A stretch of 64,000 nt of DNA from Gynuella sp. (GCA_028282465.1 JANQHX010000053.1:62001-126000), one strand, 5' to 3'; shown: positions 47,839-57,460, counted from the stretch's first letter. A program made the numbers and translations. Notes: generated by a model not told the origin, from the letters alone.

Positions 47839-48549
47839 ATGACACAGGCATATAATAAAATGAAAAAATATTTGATTGTTGAAGACGATGAAGACATAGC
47901 CCAGCTAATTACCCTTAACCTCAGACGCAATGACGTAGATATTCACCAAGTCCATGATGGTGACGAAGCCTTAAAAATAATAACAAAGCAAGACTGGGAC
48001 TTAATTCTTCTGGATATAAATTTACCCGGTGCTGATGGACTAGAAATATGTAAAACCGTCCGAAGCCAATGTCCTTATTTACCAGTCATTATGATTACCT
48101 CCAGAGACACCGAGCTAGACCGAGTGTTAGGTCTTGAACTCGGTGCTGACGATTACCTAACGAAACCTTTCTCAATACTTGAGCTACAGGCTCGAATTAA
48201 ATCAGTGTTTCGTCGAATAGATCATCACTCAAATTCAGAGCCTTCGAACTCAGTACTCAAGATTCATGACATATTGTTAAATAGAGAACAGCACAGGGCT
48301 CAGATAAAAAACCAAGGCATTAACTTAACTGCAAAAGAATTTGATTTACTGTGGCATTTAGCATCACATCCTATGACGGTGTTTAGTCGATCAGAACTAT
48401 TGGAAAAGGTATGGGGTTATGGTCATGACGGTTATGAGCACACGGTAAATTCCCATATTAATCGACTAAGGTCAAAAATAGAGGTTGATCCGAATAAACC
48501 AGAATATGTTCAGACAGTTTGGGGCGTGGGTTATCGTTTTGCTGGGTAA
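47839..48549 (+). CDS. OmpR-family response regulator
   Basis: A 236-residue regulator. Receiver domain: VEDDEDIAQLI acidic pair near residue 16, phosphoacceptor Asp in LILLDINLPGADGLE (about 57), Thr in MITSRD and Lys in YLTKPFS. C-terminal winged helix (LTAKEFDLLWHLASHP, HTVNSHINRLRSKIE, VWGVGYRF). An in-frame ATG at 47860 gives a product starting MKKYLIVEDDED, more typical of the family; TATAAT just before it could even be a -10 box. It precedes its kinase by six bases. The regulated genes are not known; nothing links it to a neighbouring target. Confidence 0.93.
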   Translation: MTQAYNKMKKYLIVEDDEDIAQLITLNLRRNDVDIHQVHDGDEALKIITKQDWDLILLDINLPGADGLEICKTVRSQCPYLPVIMITSRDTELDRVLGLELGADDYLTKPFSILELQARIKSVFRRIDHHSNSEPSNSVLKIHDILLNREQHRAQIKNQGINLTAKEFDLLWHLASHPMTVFSRSELLEKVWGYGHDGYEHTVNSHINRLRSKIEVDPNKPEYVQTVWGVGYRFAG

Positions 48550-48555
48550 TGTTTA

Positions 48556-50031
48556 ATGGATCTTAGAAGTAAAATACCTTTTTTTATTAAACTCACCATT
48601 GTTCAAATTTTACTTGTGATTGTTTTTTGTATTGTAGTTATCAATTTTGGCAAACAACAAATTCAAAAATACAACCAAGAATATGTTCAACGGTTATACG
48701 AGAATTTAGCAAGTTATATTTTAGATCATAGCAAGCAGCCGCTATTAAACGAGCAAGGGGAGCCAAATAAGAAGGCGCTTTCAGACATAGCTATGCATAC
48801 TATGATGATCAACCCACTGGTTGAGGTCTATTTGTTGGATGACCAGGGTAAAGTGCTGGGCCATGCTTTGCCAGTTGAACGTCAGGTCTCTGATCAAATA
48901 AATGTGAGCGCCATTGATTTAAGGTTGAATAGCTCAAGTAACACTTTAGTCATAGGTGAAAACCCAGGGTCACCTGGAGTGAACAGTACTTTTTCAGTGG
49001 CCGAAATCAATGCTGATTCAGGCACGCTAATGGGTTACTTATACGTAGTTTTAAGTAGTTCAGTGGCTGGGCAGGTAAATGAAGGCATTCAAACCAGTTA
49101 CGTATTAAAAAGCACTTTGTTTTTTGTGTTTGCATTGTTTTTATTGGTGATGATCACGCTGTGGGTCTATTTATTTGTGGTTACCTTGCCCATAAAAAGA
49201 CTCGCTTTGTCGGTACGCCAGTTTTTTGCTGACGAACTCAAAGAGACTACAGAGCCAGACTCAGTGGATGAGGTTAAAGACCTGGAGTTGGCATTTTATT
49301 CAATGCAAGAACGCATAAAAACTCAAATAAAGCTGATTAAGCAAGCCGACTTAGACCGAAGAGATCTTATCTCAAACATCAGTCATGATTTACGAACACC
49401 TTTGGCTTCTATTCAAGGTTATGTCGAGTCTGTGTTAGTCAAATCAAAATCCTTGAGTGAACATGACAAAAAAGAATACCTAGAAATAGCGTTAAAAAAC
49501 TGCATCAAACTGAATAAACTAATCGGTCAATTGTTTGAACTGTCCAAACTCGATTCTTCTGGAATTAAACCTAAGATGGAAGTTTTTTCACTGAGTGAGC
49601 TGGTGAGTGATGTGATTCAGTCTTATCGGCTTCAATCCGAAAACAAGTTGATCCATTTAAATGTTAATATCGAAGATAATTTCCATACTCAGGGTGACAT
49701 TTATTTAATTAATCGGGTATTTCAAAACCTATTAGACAATGCACTTAAACATACCCATCAAGGTGGGCAGGTGGATGTCTCTGTCTATCGTAAAATGGAG
49801 ACTGTGGTGGTAGAAGTAGCGGACGATGGTGTAGGCATGTCACATTGTCATCAACAAAGAATTTTTGAAAGTTACTACACGGGTGATAATTCTGTTGCTG
49901 ATGATCAGCCCGGCACTGGGCTAGGTCTTGCTATTGTGAAGAGAATACTAGAACTGCATCAGTCCCATATTGAAGTTGAATCGGCTCCTCAGGAAGGTGC
50001 CAATTTTAAATTTACTCTGTCACTTGCATAA
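48556..50031 (+). CDS. sensor histidine kinase
   Basis: A 491-residue inner-membrane kinase, partner of the upstream regulator. Order: membrane helix 1 (about 10-28), periplasmic domain of about 150 residues, helix 2 (about 190-210), HAMP, dimerisation/phosphoacceptor ISNISHDLRTPLASIQGY (His near 277), N-box NLLDNALKH near 391, G1 VADDGVGM and G2 PGTGLGLAIVKR. The periplasmic domain begins FGKQQIQKYNQEYVQRLYENLASYI and has LVEVYLLDDQGKVLGHALP, an extracellular PAS-like (Cache-type) pattern. Signal unknown. Confidence 0.93.
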   Translation: MDLRSKIPFFIKLTIVQILLVIVFCIVVINFGKQQIQKYNQEYVQRLYENLASYILDHSKQPLLNEQGEPNKKALSDIAMHTMMINPLVEVYLLDDQGKVLGHALPVERQVSDQINVSAIDLRLNSSSNTLVIGENPGSPGVNSTFSVAEINADSGTLMGYLYVVLSSSVAGQVNEGIQTSYVLKSTLFFVFALFLLVMITLWVYLFVVTLPIKRLALSVRQFFADELKETTEPDSVDEVKDLELAFYSMQERIKTQIKLIKQADLDRRDLISNISHDLRTPLASIQGYVESVLVKSKSLSEHDKKEYLEIALKNCIKLNKLIGQLFELSKLDSSGIKPKMEVFSLSELVSDVIQSYRLQSENKLIHLNVNIEDNFHTQGDIYLINRVFQNLLDNALKHTHQGGQVDVSVYRKMETVVVEVADDGVGMSHCHQQRIFESYYTGDNSVADDQPGTGLGLAIVKRILELHQSHIEVESAPQEGANFKFTLSLA

Positions 50032-50129
50032 TGCCCAATAAGCCCTTCTAGATAAAGGATCTAAGGCCGGGCATCTGAGTTGGATAATCAAATGATCACC
50101 AACTCAGACAAAGAGATTAAGAAAGAAGT

Positions 50130-50897
50130 CTATTTACCTGTGAATACCGGTTTGCGTTTATTAAAGAACGCATCCATTCCTTCTTTTTGATCCTCAGTAG
50201 CAAACAACGAGTGGAAAATACGACGCTCGATCACCAAGCCCTCTTTAAGTCCTACCTCAAGTGCTAAATCCACACACTCTTTTCCAGCAGTGACTGCGGT
50301 TGGGCTAAACTCGGCAATTTCTTTTGCCACAGACATAGTTTCCTCAAGCAGCTCATCATTGCTGAACATTCTAGAGGCCAGTCCAATCCTTAATGCTTCT
50401 TCAGCGGTAATGTTTCTGCCGGTAAGAATTAGATCCATGGCAACAGATTTTCCAACTAATTGAGTAAGACGTTGAGACGCCCCTATGCCTGAAATGACAC
50501 CAAGCTTAATTTCCGGTTGACCAAACTGTGCAATATCAGAAGTAAAAATCAGATCACACATCATTGCCAGTTCACAACCGCCGCCCAAAGCCAACCCATT
50601 AACGGCAGCAATTTTTGGTTTTCTTGAATCGCAGAATCTGTCCCAGCCCGAAAAGAAATCTGACTTAAACATATCTAAAAACGTTTTTTCTCTCATTTCA
50701 GATATATCGGCACCTGCAGAAAAAAACTTGCCTTTGCCTGTGATAATGATGCAACCAATACCATCGTCGGCTTCGCATTCATTAACTGCACTAATCAGTT
50801 GAAGCATTAGCTCTGTACTCAAAGCATTACCACGATCTGTGCGATTTAACGTTAAGGTTGCTACGCGATCTTCCACTCGTTTTTCAATTAACATCAT
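50130..50897 (-). CDS. enoyl-CoA hydratase/isomerase family protein (crotonase)
   Basis: A 255-residue crotonase. Oxyanion-hole and catalytic region: SAGADISEM near residue 63, NGLALGGGCELAMMCDL (Gly-Gly-Gly and Glu), FGQPEIKLGVISGIGASQRL (second Glu). The ISGIGASQRL stretch differs slightly from the usual IPGGGGTQRL. AGGAA precedes the ATG by about 7 bases. Last gene of the three-gene minus-strand operon with the membrane oxidoreductase and the adenylation enzyme (nine-base gap), so it may act on the CoA- or enzyme-bound acyl intermediate of that pathway instead of general beta-oxidation. Confidence 0.85.
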   Translation of the reverse strand: MMLIEKRVEDRVATLTLNRTDRGNALSTELMLQLISAVNECEADDGIGCIIITGKGKFFSAGADISEMREKTFLDMFKSDFFSGWDRFCDSRKPKIAAVNGLALGGGCELAMMCDLIFTSDIAQFGQPEIKLGVISGIGASQRLTQLVGKSVAMDLILTGRNITAEEALRIGLASRMFSNDELLEETMSVAKEIAEFSPTAVTAGKECVDLALEVGLKEGLVIERRIFHSLFATEDQKEGMDAFFNKRKPVFTGK

Positions 50898-50905
50898 TCA
50901 ATTCC

Positions 50906-52243
50906 TCATGAATCCCAGATGGCGCCGTACGCTGGAATACCTCTTGATTCCATGCCGTACACAACCTGATTGGTTAGTTTTTGATTTGAAATACAAATTA
51001 CCGCTTCAGCGTCAAACTGTTTATAAGCTCGATAAGCCAGTTCGACCATGTCAGGCTTTCCTTGAGTGGTGGTATCCCAAATAATTGCATCCGGTTGAGC
51101 TTGTTTTATTTCGTCTACTAATTCTTGGCCATAGGTTTTTTCGGGGGTGCGAGTAGACCAAACCAAGAGAGAGGGGACCTCTTTTGCCAAAAGATGAGGT
51201 AGGCAAGGGCCAATACCACTTCCCGTTGCGACATAAACAACACGTTTGAATAGCACCTCAATGTTGGCAACGCCAGCTGTTGGAATGCCTTTAACCCAAA
51301 CTTTTTCGGGAAGATCATCAATGTATTGTCCTGTCCAATCACCAGCCCTTGAAATGGTCAGTCTAAATCCATCTTCGTTAGGTGATGGAACATTTGCGAA
51401 CGCATGCCATTCAAATAGGGGGTTTCGGCTGATGGCGGTGGAAGAACCAGCAAATGGTTTGACCCCATAATTAAATCGAGATAAAGCAACATGATTAGAT
51501 GGGCTAAGCTGTTCTACTTTCACCTTTTTTAATCTTAACCATGGCAAGGCGATACTAAAGGTAATGACCATTAAGGCAATGGCAGTGGGCTCTCTAAAGA
51601 AGCCCAGTACAGATGCATCAACACTCGCTTCCAAATAGCTGCCGACACTCAGTGTCCAAAACAGTATTAATGAAAACCAGCCGCCAAACCTATGAGTCTT
51701 TTCAAATGAGTTATGAAATTTTCCACGGACTTTTGGTAGAGACATGATACAGATGCCAATCAAAGTTACAGTTAACAGCAGGCTTGAAACTGAAACTAAG
51801 TCAATACCTCGGGAACCATTAATTAATTGATAGCTTAGGCTTCCGAAAAATATCACAAACCAAGACGTACCCATGGTTGCGGCACTACTGTGAATGCCGC
51901 CAAAGTGATACACCTTGCCCAATGTCCATCTTATTCTAAGAGGCCATGAGGTGGGCGCTCGGGTTGCTGCCCAAAATAAGAAATTAATTACGTACTGCTG
52001 TCGGATGATGATGGCCGCAAAAAAATTACCGATCACCATGTTTTGTAGGTAATCCAATCTTACTTGTCCTGGTTGCCACCAGTTCCAAATAAAAATTGCT
52101 TGATAGGCAATGATTAAATTAACCATAACAACAAACACAAATAAGCGTTTGTATTGTTCAAGCATGGGGCGACGAAAAATACGTTTTAAAAAAGGCTTTT
52201 CGTTTGGTAGTTCAAACTCTGAGGGTGGGTAATACAAACTCAT
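50906..52243 (-). CDS. membrane flavin/NAD(P)-type oxidoreductase, TmpL-like C-terminal half
   Basis: A 445-residue protein with about six membrane segments in residues 30-235, then a cytosolic ferredoxin-reductase-like part: GDWTGQYIDDLPEKVWVKG (substrate or flavin region) and VVYVATGSGIGPCLPHLLAKE (about 335-352), the nucleotide-binding glycine motif, then LVWSTRTPEK and AVICISNQKLTNQVVYGMESRGIPAYGAIWD. His residues in the helices (YHFGGIHSSAAT, KTHRFGGW) could bind haem, as in ferric reductases. It overlaps the adenylation gene by four bases. Fungal TmpL/TmpA proteins join or resemble these two parts; here they are split. Confidence 0.65.
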   Translation of the reverse strand: MSLYYPPSEFELPNEKPFLKRIFRRPMLEQYKRLFVFVVMVNLIIAYQAIFIWNWWQPGQVRLDYLQNMVIGNFFAAIIIRQQYVINFLFWAATRAPTSWPLRIRWTLGKVYHFGGIHSSAATMGTSWFVIFFGSLSYQLINGSRGIDLVSVSSLLLTVTLIGICIMSLPKVRGKFHNSFEKTHRFGGWFSLILFWTLSVGSYLEASVDASVLGFFREPTAIALMVITFSIALPWLRLKKVKVEQLSPSNHVALSRFNYGVKPFAGSSTAISRNPLFEWHAFANVPSPNEDGFRLTISRAGDWTGQYIDDLPEKVWVKGIPTAGVANIEVLFKRVVYVATGSGIGPCLPHLLAKEVPSLLVWSTRTPEKTYGQELVDEIKQAQPDAIIWDTTTQGKPDMVELAYRAYKQFDAEAVICISNQKLTNQVVYGMESRGIPAYGAIWDS

Positions 52244-53823
52244 CCTATTGCCTCCATGGTTTGCTCATTCAATGCAATTTTTAGAAGCTCCCGTTTGTCA
52301 GCTTTTCCCCTGTCGGTGATGGGTATTTCGTCAATAGCTATTACCCTTTGTGGCACTGCGTAGTAGGGCAGAGAGCTGTCAAGTTGTTGTTGTATGGAAT
52401 CCAGGTTAGCGCTTGCCGGAGTACAGAAGGCAATTAATGCATCATTATTAAGTTTCAGAGTCACCGCTTTTTCACAGCTTTGATCTTTTTCAATGGTCTT
52501 AGACACCCCATCTAGCTCAACTCTAAAGCCTTTTACTTTGACTTGATCGTCTGAGCGACCTAAATGTTCAAGTTCACCATTTTCAGTCCATCGACCCAGG
52601 TCGCGGGTTTTAAACATGTATTTTCCGTCACCTAGGAATGGGTCTGGTAGGTATCGTTGATTGGTCAATTCTGGGTTATTTAAATACCCTTGAGTCACGC
52701 AATCACCGCCTGCCCACATTTCACCGGTTTCTCCAATGGCACAGGGCAGTAAATTATCATCTAATACATAAACGGTATTGTTAGGAGTGGGTTTTCCAAT
52801 GGTTAATGGTTTGCCAGGTTCAAACAACTGCAGAGTGTTGATGATGGTGGTTTCGGTAGGGCCACAGCTGTTATTGAATTCACAGTAGTTTGACCAGAGC
52901 TCCGCCAGTGGCAGCGGGCAGGGCTCACCTGCGACTGCAACTCTTTTTAAGTCTGTGCAGGTTTCAGGATTGAGTCGGCCGAGTATCGAAGGAGTCGCAA
53001 TAATGACATTGGCTTTATTGGCTGTTTGTTGAAAATCCTTACCTCGAATCAATAGGGTGCCACCATTAGCTAAGCAACCCAGTATTTCCCAAGCGGCCAT
53101 ATCAAAAGCAATATTAAGAATATGTGCCACTTTTATTCCAGGTTGAATGCCGAGATTTCCGGGATGAGTCAGCAAAATATTGCACAGATTTTTTTGGCTG
53201 ACTCTTACGCCATTCGGCTTACCTGTAGTGCCAGAGGTAAACAAAATGAAACTGGTCGCATGGCCAGGGTCTATGACTTCGGGTAGAGAGTTCAGTTTAC
53301 CGTTAGTGGTAATGGCTGTTTGAATGTCTGTTAGTTCTACACCTTGCAGTTCACTGAGTTTTTCAAAGTGCTTTGACTCAGATAGAACCATACGGGTCTC
53401 TGTGTTGTTGACTATATGTTGCAGAGTGGTGATGGGAGAAATTTCAGCATCTTGAGGAATATAAGCTGCACCTATTTTTAAGCATGCCATTATTGCAATG
53501 ACTAAACTTGGAGAGCGTTTCAAGAACAGGCCAACAGAGTCTCCTTGTTGTATGCCTTTTTCGATTAAGTAATTTGCCAAAATAGTGGCTTGCGTGTCTA
53601 CCTCCCCATAGGTGACACGAGTATCTCCAAACTCAACTGCAATAGCATTGGGTTGTGACTTAGCGAACGCTTCAAATGATTGGTGAATAGTTGGAAATGT
53701 CGGCTCAACGCTTGGACCGGTTCCAAAGTTCCAAAATAAATCGCGTTCGGTTGATGTTAAGCAAGAAATTGGATCGTTAGCCAATTCAATACTTGGGTAA
53801 ATCTCAATAGACTGTTTTGTCAT
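52240..53823 (-). CDS. NRPS-like adenylation (AMP-binding) enzyme, stand-alone
   Basis: About 527 residues from ATG 53821-53823, with AAGGAT eight bases upstream. It activates an amino or carboxylic acid as the adenylate. Core motifs: FILFTSGTTGKPNGV (A3), NIAFDMAAWEIL (A4), NSCGPTETTI (A5), KTRDLGRW (A7), LGRSDDQVKVKGFRVEL (A8) and TDRGKADKREL with the catalytic Lys (A10). No condensation, thioesterase or carrier (DSL) motif is present, and the carrier domain is missing. The Asp of A4 suggests an amino-acid-like substrate. First of the three-gene operon. Confidence 0.85.
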   Translation of the reverse strand: MTKQSIEIYPSIELANDPISCLTSTERDLFWNFGTGPSVEPTFPTIHQSFEAFAKSQPNAIAVEFGDTRVTYGEVDTQATILANYLIEKGIQQGDSVGLFLKRSPSLVIAIMACLKIGAAYIPQDAEISPITTLQHIVNNTETRMVLSESKHFEKLSELQGVELTDIQTAITTNGKLNSLPEVIDPGHATSFILFTSGTTGKPNGVRVSQKNLCNILLTHPGNLGIQPGIKVAHILNIAFDMAAWEILGCLANGGTLLIRGKDFQQTANKANVIIATPSILGRLNPETCTDLKRVAVAGEPCPLPLAELWSNYCEFNNSCGPTETTIINTLQLFEPGKPLTIGKPTPNNTVYVLDDNLLPCAIGETGEMWAGGDCVTQGYLNNPELTNQRYLPDPFLGDGKYMFKTRDLGRWTENGELEHLGRSDDQVKVKGFRVELDGVSKTIEKDQSCEKAVTLKLNNDALIAFCTPASANLDSIQQQLDSSLPYYAVPQRVIAIDEIPITDRGKADKRELLKIALNEQTMEAIG

Positions 53824-54760
53824 GGTTTCTATCCTTTTGGGCGAACAGTAACCATGAGACCCGAAGGGCGATTTCAAGTTATCACAAAAGTATCACGATT
53901 TTCTAAAATCATCGTGATTCGTTAACTCATCCTATTTCCTAAATTAGATGTTTCCTTCTACCATTTAAATTCACTAATTTAAAATTTTTTGTTCTTAATT
54001 TTGTAATCAAGTAATGCTGGCCACAAAGTATGATCAAAAAAAAATCTGTAAGTTGCGTTTTAGCTATGAATAATACTTTTTGAGAAATTAGTGTTACCGA
54101 AACCATTTGAATTCGACTAAACTGCTAAATAGATCCATCTAAATAGTTCCATTGATTACTAATTTGTTAGTGAATAATCAGTTTCCTCTACATTAGCCTT
54201 TTTTGGCAGGGCTACCTATTTAGTAATACTCTTAGTATTAAATAAATAATCTTTTATATTTCAACTAATAAATGGCAATGAAATAGTTAAAAATGGCACT
54301 TCATTGTTAAAATATTATTCAATATTTTGTGGATAGATCGTAAAAAATATTCGAATTGGTATAAAAAATAGTCTGATGGGCTGTCAATTTTGACAGGTTT
54401 CTTGGGTGTTGAATTTAACTATATTTAAAAAACTTAATTCAAAGGGCATGCGAGCTGGTTCACAATTCAACAGCGTAACCGCACGCAAAAAGAGAAAATC
54501 GAATTGGCCTTTAGATCTCAGTCATGTTTGACAAAGATTGGAATTAAGTAAACAGAATTAAGAGTTAAGTAAGAACGGGTAGGTTAGGCAAAGATTTTCT
54601 GACTTCGGTGAGTAGCATTTAGATAGTTGTTTACTTAATTGAAGTGTGAGTTTTGATGTTTAACTTGAATATTCGTTAGAAAGGATGCCGATTAAATATT
54701 TCTTTTCAAAATAATATTAATTGGATTTTTCATCTACATTCGAGTCGTTGGGATACTGCC
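53824..54760. other. 937-base AT-rich gene-free region
   Basis: Two divergent transcription units (adenylation operon and the 54761 gene) flank an unusually long AT-rich stretch with no open frame that I can support. One perfect dyad is noted separately at 54381-54396. It may carry promoters, a small RNA or a horizontally acquired regulatory region; I cannot tell which. Confidence 0.5.
54381..54396. promoter_or_regulatory. perfect dyad, operator-like
   Basis: CTGTCAATTTTGACAG, two 7-base arms around TT. Found in the middle of the long gene-free gap; too short to be a terminator, so an operator is the simplest idea. Confidence 0.35.
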
Positions 54761-55558
54761 GTGGAAAAGTCAGATTATTTTAATATAGGGCGTAACTATT
54801 TATTGTCGTTTGAAAACATTACTGAAAGCATGATTGATGCTCATCTTAATGCTTGGAAGCAACAAACATTGACGTCATTGCCTGAGGTTTTCAAAGGCAT
54901 TTTAAACCATGTCAAAAATCGCAGAGGCATGGCTGCAAGCATTGGCTGTCTAGAACGAATCGAACACATCCTGTTTGATTATGACCATGTGAAAGTCATG
55001 GAAAACTTCTCAGATTGGAAAGAAATATTCAAAGCCATTGAAGAAGACGATTACACTCCACCAGGGAAGATGGACATCCGCATTGGCAAGAATCTCTGGG
55101 TAGTCTATTGCAAAGCCATATACTCCACCTGTGAGTTTCTAACTTTGTTTAAGTCTTTTGATGATTTTACAACCTTCATTGAAAGCTTTTGGACTTCAGA
55201 GTTCACCAAATTATCCTTGCCATTGCTATTGTCCGAAAAGATTTATGGCTTAGGGTTTTCGCTAGCCTGTGACTTCATTAAGGAAAATATTTCACCGGAA
55301 TTCCTAAAACCTGATACTCATATTAGGGAAATCGCAAAGGGCTTAGAAATTACCAGCTCCAATGATGATTTCATTGTTTATCGAGATGTTGAAGAGTATT
55401 GCAAGGGCATTGATAAACTCCCCTATGAGGTTGATAAACTATTTTGGCTGATTGGCAGTGGTGATTTTTACTTGTTTAACGTTGAAATCAAGTCGGATAA
55501 AAACAAGTATCTTAACTTGGTGAATACCATGAAGGGTCAGGAAGAGGTCGCGCAATAA
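54761..55558 (+). CDS. hypothetical protein with weak HhH-GPD-like features
   Basis: A 265-residue protein starting at GTG 54761. No signal peptide or membrane helix. In the C-terminal half KIYGLGFSLACDFIKENISPEFLKPDTHIREIAKGL (about 165-200) recalls the helix-hairpin-helix and catalytic-Asp region of DNA glycosylases (GxG...PDxHV), and KLFWLIGSGDFYLF follows. The first half has no motif I know. The resemblance is by eye only. The gene is AT-rich and flanked by long non-coding stretches (937 bases before, 351 after, the latter apparently empty), suggesting acquisition by transfer. Confidence 0.5.
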   Translation: MEKSDYFNIGRNYLLSFENITESMIDAHLNAWKQQTLTSLPEVFKGILNHVKNRRGMAASIGCLERIEHILFDYDHVKVMENFSDWKEIFKAIEEDDYTPPGKMDIRIGKNLWVVYCKAIYSTCEFLTLFKSFDDFTTFIESFWTSEFTKLSLPLLLSEKIYGLGFSLACDFIKENISPEFLKPDTHIREIAKGLEITSSNDDFIVYRDVEEYCKGIDKLPYEVDKLFWLIGSGDFYLFNVEIKSDKNKYLNLVNTMKGQEEVAQ

Positions 55559-55909
55559 AGCAAATCCATTAGAGCCAGTATTGAGGTTTCAGGTGGAAAA
55601 GGAAATCCGCCTGTGACTGTAATGTAACACCACAACTTTTTTTGTTCCGCACTCTAACTATATCTTTATTCTTAAGTCCTGACTTTTAGCCCTAGGTTAA
55701 ACAGGGGCATTCATCATTACTTATACATGGTTTCGACTTTTCTCTATAGTCTGATTGACTGTCCAACCTTTTTCTTCTGAGCTTAAACAATTCTGATCTA
55801 AAACGTCATTCACGTTGTAAAAACAATGAAATCGCAATGGCAACCGAGATGTTCTTGCCGAAAATAATCATTAATTGAAATATTGAATACAAGCAAATGG
55901 AGCTGGTTC

Positions 55910-57460
55910 ATGGACAAAGCGGTAATTGCAAACAATCGTCCTGCGAAGGTGTCATTAACTGAGGGTGAAGAATACTATTTTTGCGCCTGTGGACGATCCA
56001 AAAACCAACCTTTTTGCGACGGCTCACATAAAAGAACAAGCATTAAGCCTAAAAAGTTTACTGCGAATGAAACAGGCGATGCCTATCTTTGCCAATGTAA
56101 ACAAACCGGAAATGCACCCTACTGTGACGGTACCCATAAACAGATACCTTCTGAATTAGTAGGGCAAGAGTCAAACTCTAAACACTTGATTGCCACAGAT
56201 TCGGTCAATGCTCAATCCACACCTGAAGAACCGACTGTTGAACTCATTCATGAATTGGCTAAGAACGGCCTTACTGAGACAGGTCATCATGGCCCAATGA
56301 CTTCCATGGGTGTGCCCAGAGCACAACTTCCCCATTGGGATGATATTCAAATCATGGTCGCTCAAATGGCCACCAAGCCTTTGGCTGAAGAAATTAATAT
56401 TGATACTCAATTAGTGATTGGGCCTGAGGCGAAGAAACCTTTGTTACTTGATATTCCTCTTTTTGTGTCTGATATGAGTTTTGGTGCACTGTCAGAAGAA
56501 GCCAAAATAGCCATGGCAAAAGGCGCTGAATTAGCGGGCACAGGTATTTGTTCTGGTGAAGGTGGTATGTTGCCAGAAGAACAAGAAGCCAATTCGAAAT
56601 ACTTTTATGAACTAGCCAGTGCTGAGTTTGGTTATAAAGAGGAACTTCTGACGAAAGTTCAAGCTTTCCATTTTAAGGGAGGGCAGGGTGCCAAGACGGG
56701 TACCGGTGGACACCTGCCAGGTAATAAAAACAAAGGAAAAATCTCGCAAGTCAGAGGAATCAAAGAGGGCACTTCTGCTATTTCGCCACCAACATTTAAA
56801 AATCTTTCAAGTATTGAAGACTTTCAACAATTTGGCGACCGAGTAAGAGAATTGACAGGCGGAATTCCAATTGGTTTTAAACTGAGTGCCAATCATATTG
56901 AAAAGGACATTCAATTTGCGCTCGACGCCGGTGCGGATTACCTCATATTAGATGGTCGAGGTGGAGGAACTGGGGCGGCCCCGGAAATTTTTCGAGATCA
57001 CATCAGTGTACCGACCATTCCTGCGTTGGCCCGCGCACGGAGATACCTTGATCAACAAGGAGCCAGTGGCCGAGTCACATTAATTATTACGGGCGGCTTA
57101 CGTATGCCCATGGATTTCGTAAAAGCAATGGCATTAGGCGCCGACGGAATTGCCTTGGCTAACAGCGCTATGCAGGCTATTGGCTGTGTTGCCGCGAGAA
57201 TGTGTAATACCAATAATTGCCCATCCGGTATTGCTACCCAAAAAGAAGAGTTGAGAAAAAGGCTGGATGTTGACAAATCTGCTAACCAACTTAATAACTT
57301 TTTTAATGCCTCAACTGAGCTTATGAAAGTAATGGCACGAGCTTGCGGACATAACAAGTTGAGTGAGTTTAACAAAGAAGATTTATCTACCTGGCACCGA
57401 GAAGTGGCATTGCTCACTGGCATCAATTTTTCAGGGTTTGCTAACAAGTCTGAACTGTAA
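55910..57460 (+). CDS. double-CDGSH iron-sulfur / glutamate-synthase-domain fusion protein
   Basis: About 516 residues from ATG 55910, with GGAG at 55899-55902; a TTG at 55883 is less likely. Two CDGSH [2Fe-2S] motifs open the protein: CACGRSKNQPFCDGSH (25-40) and CQCKQTGNAPYCDGTH (61-76). From about 140 the FMN-binding domain of glutamate synthase follows: PLFVSDMSFGALSEEAKIAMAKGAELAGT, SGEGGML, GQGAKTGTGGHLPG, LDGRGGGTGAAPE and ITGGLRMPMDFVKAMALGADG. A Cys-rich patch (CVAARMCNTNNCPSGIATQ) near 435-455 could ligate the usual [3Fe-4S] cluster. It lacks the glutaminase domain, so ammonia- or other-electron-transfer chemistry is likely. Confidence 0.85.
   Translation: MDKAVIANNRPAKVSLTEGEEYYFCACGRSKNQPFCDGSHKRTSIKPKKFTANETGDAYLCQCKQTGNAPYCDGTHKQIPSELVGQESNSKHLIATDSVNAQSTPEEPTVELIHELAKNGLTETGHHGPMTSMGVPRAQLPHWDDIQIMVAQMATKPLAEEINIDTQLVIGPEAKKPLLLDIPLFVSDMSFGALSEEAKIAMAKGAELAGTGICSGEGGMLPEEQEANSKYFYELASAEFGYKEELLTKVQAFHFKGGQGAKTGTGGHLPGNKNKGKISQVRGIKEGTSAISPPTFKNLSSIEDFQQFGDRVRELTGGIPIGFKLSANHIEKDIQFALDAGADYLILDGRGGGTGAAPEIFRDHISVPTIPALARARRYLDQQGASGRVTLIITGGLRMPMDFVKAMALGADGIALANSAMQAIGCVAARMCNTNNCPSGIATQKEELRKRLDVDKSANQLNNFFNASTELMKVMARACGHNKLSEFNKEDLSTWHREVALLTGINFSGFANKSEL

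Follow-up and report, generated by a model that had tools for sequence, protein, structure and literature searches.

In the 64,000-nucleotide stretch of Gynuella sp. DNA analysed here (GCA_028282465.1 JANQHX010000053.1:62001-126000; referred to as the window) we found three adjacent minus-strand open reading frames (ORFs), at 50130-53823 in the ORF listing of the window, that probably constitute a rare and patchily distributed biosynthetic cassette (a probability of about 0.55). The cassette would combine a crotonase with a bacterial, usually split version of the fungal enzyme TmpL/TmpB (ChNPS12), and its product would be a small metabolite, plausibly a signal. The three genes are:

52240..53823, minus strand: AD, a stand-alone adenylation enzyme of the nonribosomal peptide synthetase (NRPS) type, 527 residues (from Pfam, NCBIfam and a pocket alignment)
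50906..52243, minus strand: MEM, a flavoprotein oxidoreductase with six transmembrane (TM) helices and the NOX/FRE fold, 445 residues (from a structure model and motifs)
50130..50897, minus strand: ECH, a crotonase-fold enoyl-CoA hydratase, 255 residues (from a profile match and the catalytic Glu)

We placed the start of AD at the ATG at 53823; the ORF extends further to a TTG at 53877. AD and MEM overlap by four bases (ATGA), as an earlier reading made from the sequence only had stated, and ECH follows MEM after 8 bases (50898-50905) rather than the nine given in that reading. Shine-Dalgarno-like sequences are found upstream of both MEM and ECH.

The comparison of loci confirmed that AD, MEM and ECH form a real conserved unit and not a chance neighbourhood. 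MEM homologues, sought in one genome per species, occur in about 1-2% of genomes (6/293 in the order, 4/398 in the phylum, 2/247 in the phylum of Aquimarina and 2/201 in that of the Chloroflexi host, each count including the genome on which the search was centred), and come from scattered hosts (Vibrio, Veronia, Enterovibrio, Hahella, Oceanospirillales, Pelagibius, Aquimarina, Chloroflexota and Calditrichota). The 26 loci inspected span the Gamma- and Alphaproteobacteria, Bacteroidota, Chloroflexota and Calditrichota, i.e. at least four phyla. AD lies directly ahead of MEM in all 26, and ECH directly after MEM in 24 of the 25 that could be judged (L016, which stops at a contig end, was left out of this count); frameshifts disrupt the Enterovibrio copy (L017). 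The order AD-MEM-ECH is kept across phyla at about 50-62% identity, AD and MEM form a single ORF of 1006 residues in six Flavobacteriia loci, and AD, MEM and ECH show correlated pairwise distances (r 0.65-0.72; none of 2000 permutations gave values as high). An ordinary neighbourhood made up of unrelated genes would be conceivable given that ECH and A-domain genes are common in bacteria, but it is refuted by a three-gene order that recurs in at least four phyla, in split and fused architectures and with correlated divergence, and its probability is practically negligible. The patchy distribution together with the conserved order points to horizontal transfer, by which the cassette may have moved as a unit. 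A search of plasmids yielded no cassette, only MEM homologues on their own in Pantoea (46% identity) and distant ones in cyanobacteria (28-29%), and a search of viral contigs yielded no relative. In the loci with the fused gene (at 6300-9320 in L009, L010, L015, L022, L011 and L012, from Aquimarina and relatives) a gene for a Crp-like regulator is located upstream and a DUF6733 gene after ECH.

AD is clearly related to the adenylation (A) domains (Pfam AMP-binding, E=2e-63; the match to AMP-binding_C is weak). Neither a carrier (T) domain nor a condensation domain was found in the Pfam search, so the protein is not an NRPS module, and the Pfam and NCBIfam profiles agree with the earlier description of a carrier-less enzyme of the NRPS type. 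Among the matches listed, AD scores under every NCBIfam equivalog cut-off, and the cassette ADs score 846-980 bits as compared to at most 383 for any other A domain in the same genomes; judged by these comparisons AD is a clade far from the other A domains. The sequence-only reading had named one observation about AD that would count against it, a match to a known family from siderophore or other pathways; such a match came up neither among the NCBIfam equivalogs nor in the A-domain comparison.

The binding pocket of AD resembles that of PheA (gramicidin S synthetase 1, GrsA, 1amu; the GrsA segment used for the alignment was verified against 1amu). The core FDMAAWE (53086..53106, minus strand) contains D241 and W245, equivalent to D235 and W239 of PheA and to D238 and W242 of TmpB. 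The pocket code of AD reads DMWTAASIIK, with K507 as the catalytic lysine, and the pattern D-M-W-T-(A/I)-A-(S/A/C)-I-(I/V)-K, including the Asp that binds the alpha-amino group and the phenylalanine-like pocket, was found in 19 of 19 ADs, almost invariant across phyla. Six of the ten residues are the same as in PheA (DAWTIAAICK; seven in Aquimarina), including those at D235, W239, T278, I330 and K517, where the assignment at 278 varies with the placement of a two-residue gap just after that position; AD departs from PheA at 236 (M), 299 (A), 322 (S) and 331 (I/V). The pocket suggests that the substrate is likely an aromatic or large hydrophobic alpha-amino acid. Unlike PheA, which is part of a carrier-containing NRPS module, AD is a stand-alone protein and might load in trans an NRPS encoded elsewhere (for a siderophore or peptide), with MEM and ECH tailoring the amino acid. 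The NRPS-type A domain with its intact pocket would suit such a role, many hosts carry NRPS clusters (the genome of the window has one A domain besides AD), and stand-alone A domains that act in trans are known (Bushley and Turgeon 2010, PMC2823734). However, two cassette genomes (G667 and G015) contain no other A domain at E<=1e-60, which indicates that an NRPS partner is not needed and rules out in-trans loading as the general role. Moreover, AD is fused to MEM in some hosts, and no NRPS or carrier-protein gene is kept beside the cassette. We therefore consider in-trans loading quite unlikely. An N-terminal extension of ~170 residues is present on the ADs of three genomes that belong to one family (L082:5842-6390, L083 and L096). 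It contains a coiled-coil-like stretch, and its start is reminiscent of KfrA-type DNA-binding domains; a Pfam search with the extension gave zero matches.

The relation to the fungal enzymes is visible in several features. Kim et al. (2009, PMC2766074) described TmpL (1025 and 994 residues) as composed of an A domain, a region of six TM helices and an FAD/NAD(P) domain that contains the motif GSGIGP, and demonstrated flavin binding by the FAD/NAD(P)-binding region in recombinant form. The cassette shares with TmpL/TmpB (from A. brassicicola and A. fumigatus, and A. nidulans, respectively; ChNPS12 group 1) the carrier-less A domain, the six TM helices, the FAD/NAD(P) domain and GSGIGP. The pocket reported for A. 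nidulans TmpB (D238, W242, C307, G309, I315 and K495; PMC4804170) corresponds to D241, W245, S319 (C in Veronia and Hahella), G321, I327 and K507 of AD. All five PheA-like residues of TmpB (Asp, Trp, Gly, Ile and Lys) are thus present, and the phenylalanine-type pocket reported for TmpB is kept in AD. The Gly-to-Lys spacing is 186 in both AD and TmpB (193 in PheA), and the Asp-to-Gly spacing is 80 in AD versus 71 in TmpB (89 in PheA). TmpL is a single polypeptide whereas AD and MEM of the window are split, and the fused order and size (1006 versus 989-1025 residues) are seen only in the six Flavobacteriia loci; the cassette of the window is for that reason a split counterpart and not TmpL as such. 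ECH lies directly downstream in an operon-like array, and in A. nidulans a gene for an enoyl-CoA hydratase/isomerase adjoins tmpB, an association conserved in several Aspergilli (PMC4804170), which argues that the crotonase belongs to the set. The cassette is supported, as an architecture, as the bacterial and usually split form of TmpL/TmpB, and the shared features, with the fungal side taken from its published description, suggest common descent. The earlier proposal of a split TmpL counterpart is thus backed by the fused bacterial forms, the kept pocket residues, GSGIGP and the fungal hydratase neighbour.

Bushley and Turgeon (2010, PMC2823734) described single A domains of bacteria that fall inside the fungal ChNPS12 clade. 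These domains stand alone like AD, and the part of that paper that deals with them names no partner and mentions neither a membrane protein nor a crotonase; they may represent the AD family, in which case MEM and ECH may be their partners. A. nidulans also has TmpA, a stand-alone membrane oxidoreductase of the MEM type, and the Pantoea plasmid with MEM alone resembles that arrangement. The gene tmpA adjoins and acts with that of AfeA, a coumarate-ligase-like enzyme, whereas AD is an A domain of the NRPS type.

MEM matches no Pfam or NCBIfam family above threshold (NAD_binding_1 in Pfam, E=0.045), so profile-based annotation would call it hypothetical. Its AlphaFold2 model (pLDDT 84.8) has six membrane helices and a two-domain dehydrogenase, and structure comparison aligns it with SpNOX (Z 22.1, over 368 residues) and with NOX2 (Z 20.7). 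Sequence searches of the PDB returned weak and local matches to NOX2 only, and the fold assignment therefore rests on the model. According to the model MEM has the fold expected of a bacterial NADPH oxidase (NOX), and shares the six TM helices and the FAD/NAD(P)H dehydrogenase with SpNOX and the FRD superfamily. Three motifs are relevant to its function:

51206..51223, minus strand: GSGIGP, NAD(P)-binding motif, residues 341-346 of MEM, the same as the motif printed for TmpL
51890..51907, minus strand: H113-FGGI-H118, at the start of the third TM helix (TM3) on the cytoplasmic side, with no His 14 residues further
51689..51715, minus strand: H177-NSFEKT-H184-R, at the start of TM5, with no His 13 residues further

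GSGIGP is invariant in the 17 homologues aligned, and this alignment and the model together bear out the six-helix protein with a GSGIGP nucleotide site that had been recognised before. In NOX2, His-101 and His-209 are expected at the cytoplasm-side haem and His-115 and His-222 at the surface-side haem (PMC3591440). H184 of MEM aligns with His-209 (in a segment that aligns weakly) and H113 is likely the equivalent of His-101. The second His of TM3 and of TM5 is missing in 17/17 homologues, so that the His-X12/14-His pattern is absent, and no cassette-type homologue in the alignment has equivalents of His-115 and His-222, the surface-side ligands. The three published filters for bacterial NOX (FAD, NADPH and His) all exclude MEM, which reads HAFAN and GSGIGP at the sites of the FAD and NADPH motifs (PMC5676040). 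Unlike bacterial NOX, MEM thus lacks the second haem His in TM3 and TM5 and has deviating FAD and NADPH motifs, and whereas short forms of the YedZ/STEAP type retain the surface haem, MEM would retain only the cytoplasmic one. The conserved and missing histidines, seen together with the model, suggest an NADPH-oxidase fold that keeps only the cytoplasm-side haem histidines and hence a single inner site, i.e. an FRD variant with the reverse of the YedZ/STEAP pattern. The missing surface-side histidines and the failed filters indicate that the chemistry of MEM probably takes place on the cytoplasmic side, without export of electrons.

These properties bear directly on a role in redox defence, in which MEM would transport electrons through the membrane as an NADPH oxidase or a ferric reductase, with AD and ECH in a side role. 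The NOX fold of MEM and the oxidant sensitivity of fungal tmpL mutants (PMC2766074) speak for it, as do the location elsewhere of kinases homologous to the one encoded beside the cassette next to genes for MsrA/MsrB, and a catalase gene near one cassette (L084). Nevertheless, the missing equivalents of His-115 and His-222, the failure at all three NOX filters, the conservation of AD and ECH together with MEM, and the observation that A. nidulans tmpB mutants are not H2O2-sensitive make such a role unlikely. The missing haem ligands and the motifs rule out MEM as a plain NOX or ferric reductase, and the link to redox homeostasis drawn in the sequence-only reading is not supported, given the failed filters and the phenotype of the tmpB mutants. 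The distant MEM-like proteins of the cyanobacterial plasmids (L024:6475-7767, followed by an HlyD-type gene, and L025:11875-13167) have, unlike the cassette MEMs, a His near the position of NOX2 His-222.

ECH is a crotonase by its family profile (Pfam ECH_1, E=2.6e-69) and by its catalytic Glu pair, E109 and E129, which is invariant in the family. In a quick tree the ECHs of cassettes from several phyla group together, separate from the host paralogues (SH-aLRT 96), and in Hahella an unrelated crotonase occupies the ECH slot, which suggests that crotonase activity is needed. Two non-cassette crotonase genes (L113 in G667 and L114 in G659) branch just outside the cassette clade. A ligase, a flavoprotein and a hydratase would also be the order of the first steps of beta-oxidation, and with both catalytic Glu kept in ECH the genes could form a degradative operon with AD as acyl-CoA ligase, MEM as acyl dehydrogenase and ECH as hydratase. 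We find this rather unlikely, as a phenylalanine-like pocket with the Asp that binds the alpha-amino group is present in all 19 ADs, MEM contains a module of the NAD(P)H-dehydrogenase type and not the acyl-CoA dehydrogenase fold, and no further gene cluster accompanies the cassette across phyla.

For the biosynthetic cassette we propose the following sequence of steps. AD would activate an aromatic or large hydrophobic alpha-amino acid to the aminoacyl-AMP, as suggested by its pocket, and the activated acyl group would be passed on, either to CoA or to an acceptor that MEM holds, AD itself being without a carrier domain. In MEM, electrons from NAD(P)H would pass via FAD to a site close to the cytoplasmic leaflet, either a haem or a His-metal site, where MEM would carry out redox chemistry with no transmembrane electron export. 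ECH, in which the Glu pair is observed, would hydrate, dehydrate or isomerise a CoA-thioester intermediate. The two-component system that adjoins the cassette in several gammaproteobacteria may control it or sense its product, most likely a small metabolite or signal derived from an aromatic amino acid. Several points weigh against such a pathway. To our knowledge, a chain of an aminoacyl-AMP, a NOX-type flavoprotein and an enoyl-CoA hydratase has no known precedent. The haem of MEM is deduced from histidines (H113, H118, H177 and H184) that could be structural or bind another metal, and the Hahella MEM is without H184. Furthermore, the cassette of G015 (L085) has no adjacent ECH, a plasmid of Pantoea piersonii carries the MEM homologue (L023:9917-11272) without AD or ECH, and the kinase family of the adjacent system is common (45/293 genomes of the order) and mostly located away from the cassette.

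The two-component system is encoded next to ECH on the opposite strand:

48556..50031, plus strand: HK, a sensor histidine kinase with an extracytoplasmic PAS/Cache-like sensor
47839..48549, plus strand: RR, an OmpR-type response regulator paired with HK
50074..50108, between the convergent ECH and HK genes: a perfect 10-bp inverted repeat, TCTGAGTTGG/CCAACTCAGA

The inverted repeat is possibly a terminator shared by ECH and HK; a terminator scan did not score it as such. In five loci (the window, L007, L014, L018 and L084) a kinase/response-regulator pair is the immediate neighbour of the cassette, and in L017 the pair is ~6 kb distant. This five-locus adjacency is far beyond chance, and the kinases of these pairs share the extracytoplasmic PAS/Cache-like sensor. 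The HK family occurs in 3/6 cassette genomes versus 45/293 overall, which taken alone is weak evidence, so that only the physical adjacency is telling. AlphaFold and Foldseek describe the HK sensor, with moderate confidence, as a generic PAS/Cache-like domain (as in citrate, formate and dicarboxylate sensors). In sampled genomes that lack the cassette the family is found beside MsrA/MsrB genes (L087, L090 and L093) or genes for Spondin_N lipoproteins (L088, L089 and L094), which suggests a family of envelope-stress sensors. Other regulators beside the cassette are the Crp-like protein in Aquimarina, a hybrid kinase with an AraC domain (L021) and a LysR-type protein (L020).

A more far-reaching and rather doubtful extension is that bacteria and fungi use the set of A domain, membrane oxidoreductase and crotonase for related signals derived from aromatic amino acids, with MEM, a NOX fold with an inner redox site only, acting on the activated amino acid and the gammaproteobacterial kinase perceiving the product. 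If true, this would amount to an autoinducer circuit of a new kind, and the conidiation signal of TmpB would be revealed by the bacterial product. TmpL/TmpB has been studied since 2006-2009 for its role in fungal sporulation, oxidant tolerance and virulence and remains an orphan enzyme, and our search of the open-access full-text literature found no paper on the bacterial AD-MEM-ECH cassette. The compact bacterial operon with its split and separately expressible subunits makes substrate, acceptor and product directly testable.

Two further genes of the window were noted near the cassette, one (54761-55558) encoding a protein of 265 residues with zero Pfam matches and the other (55883-57460) a protein with a glutamate-synthase-type FMN domain and N-terminal CDGSH iron-sulfur motifs.

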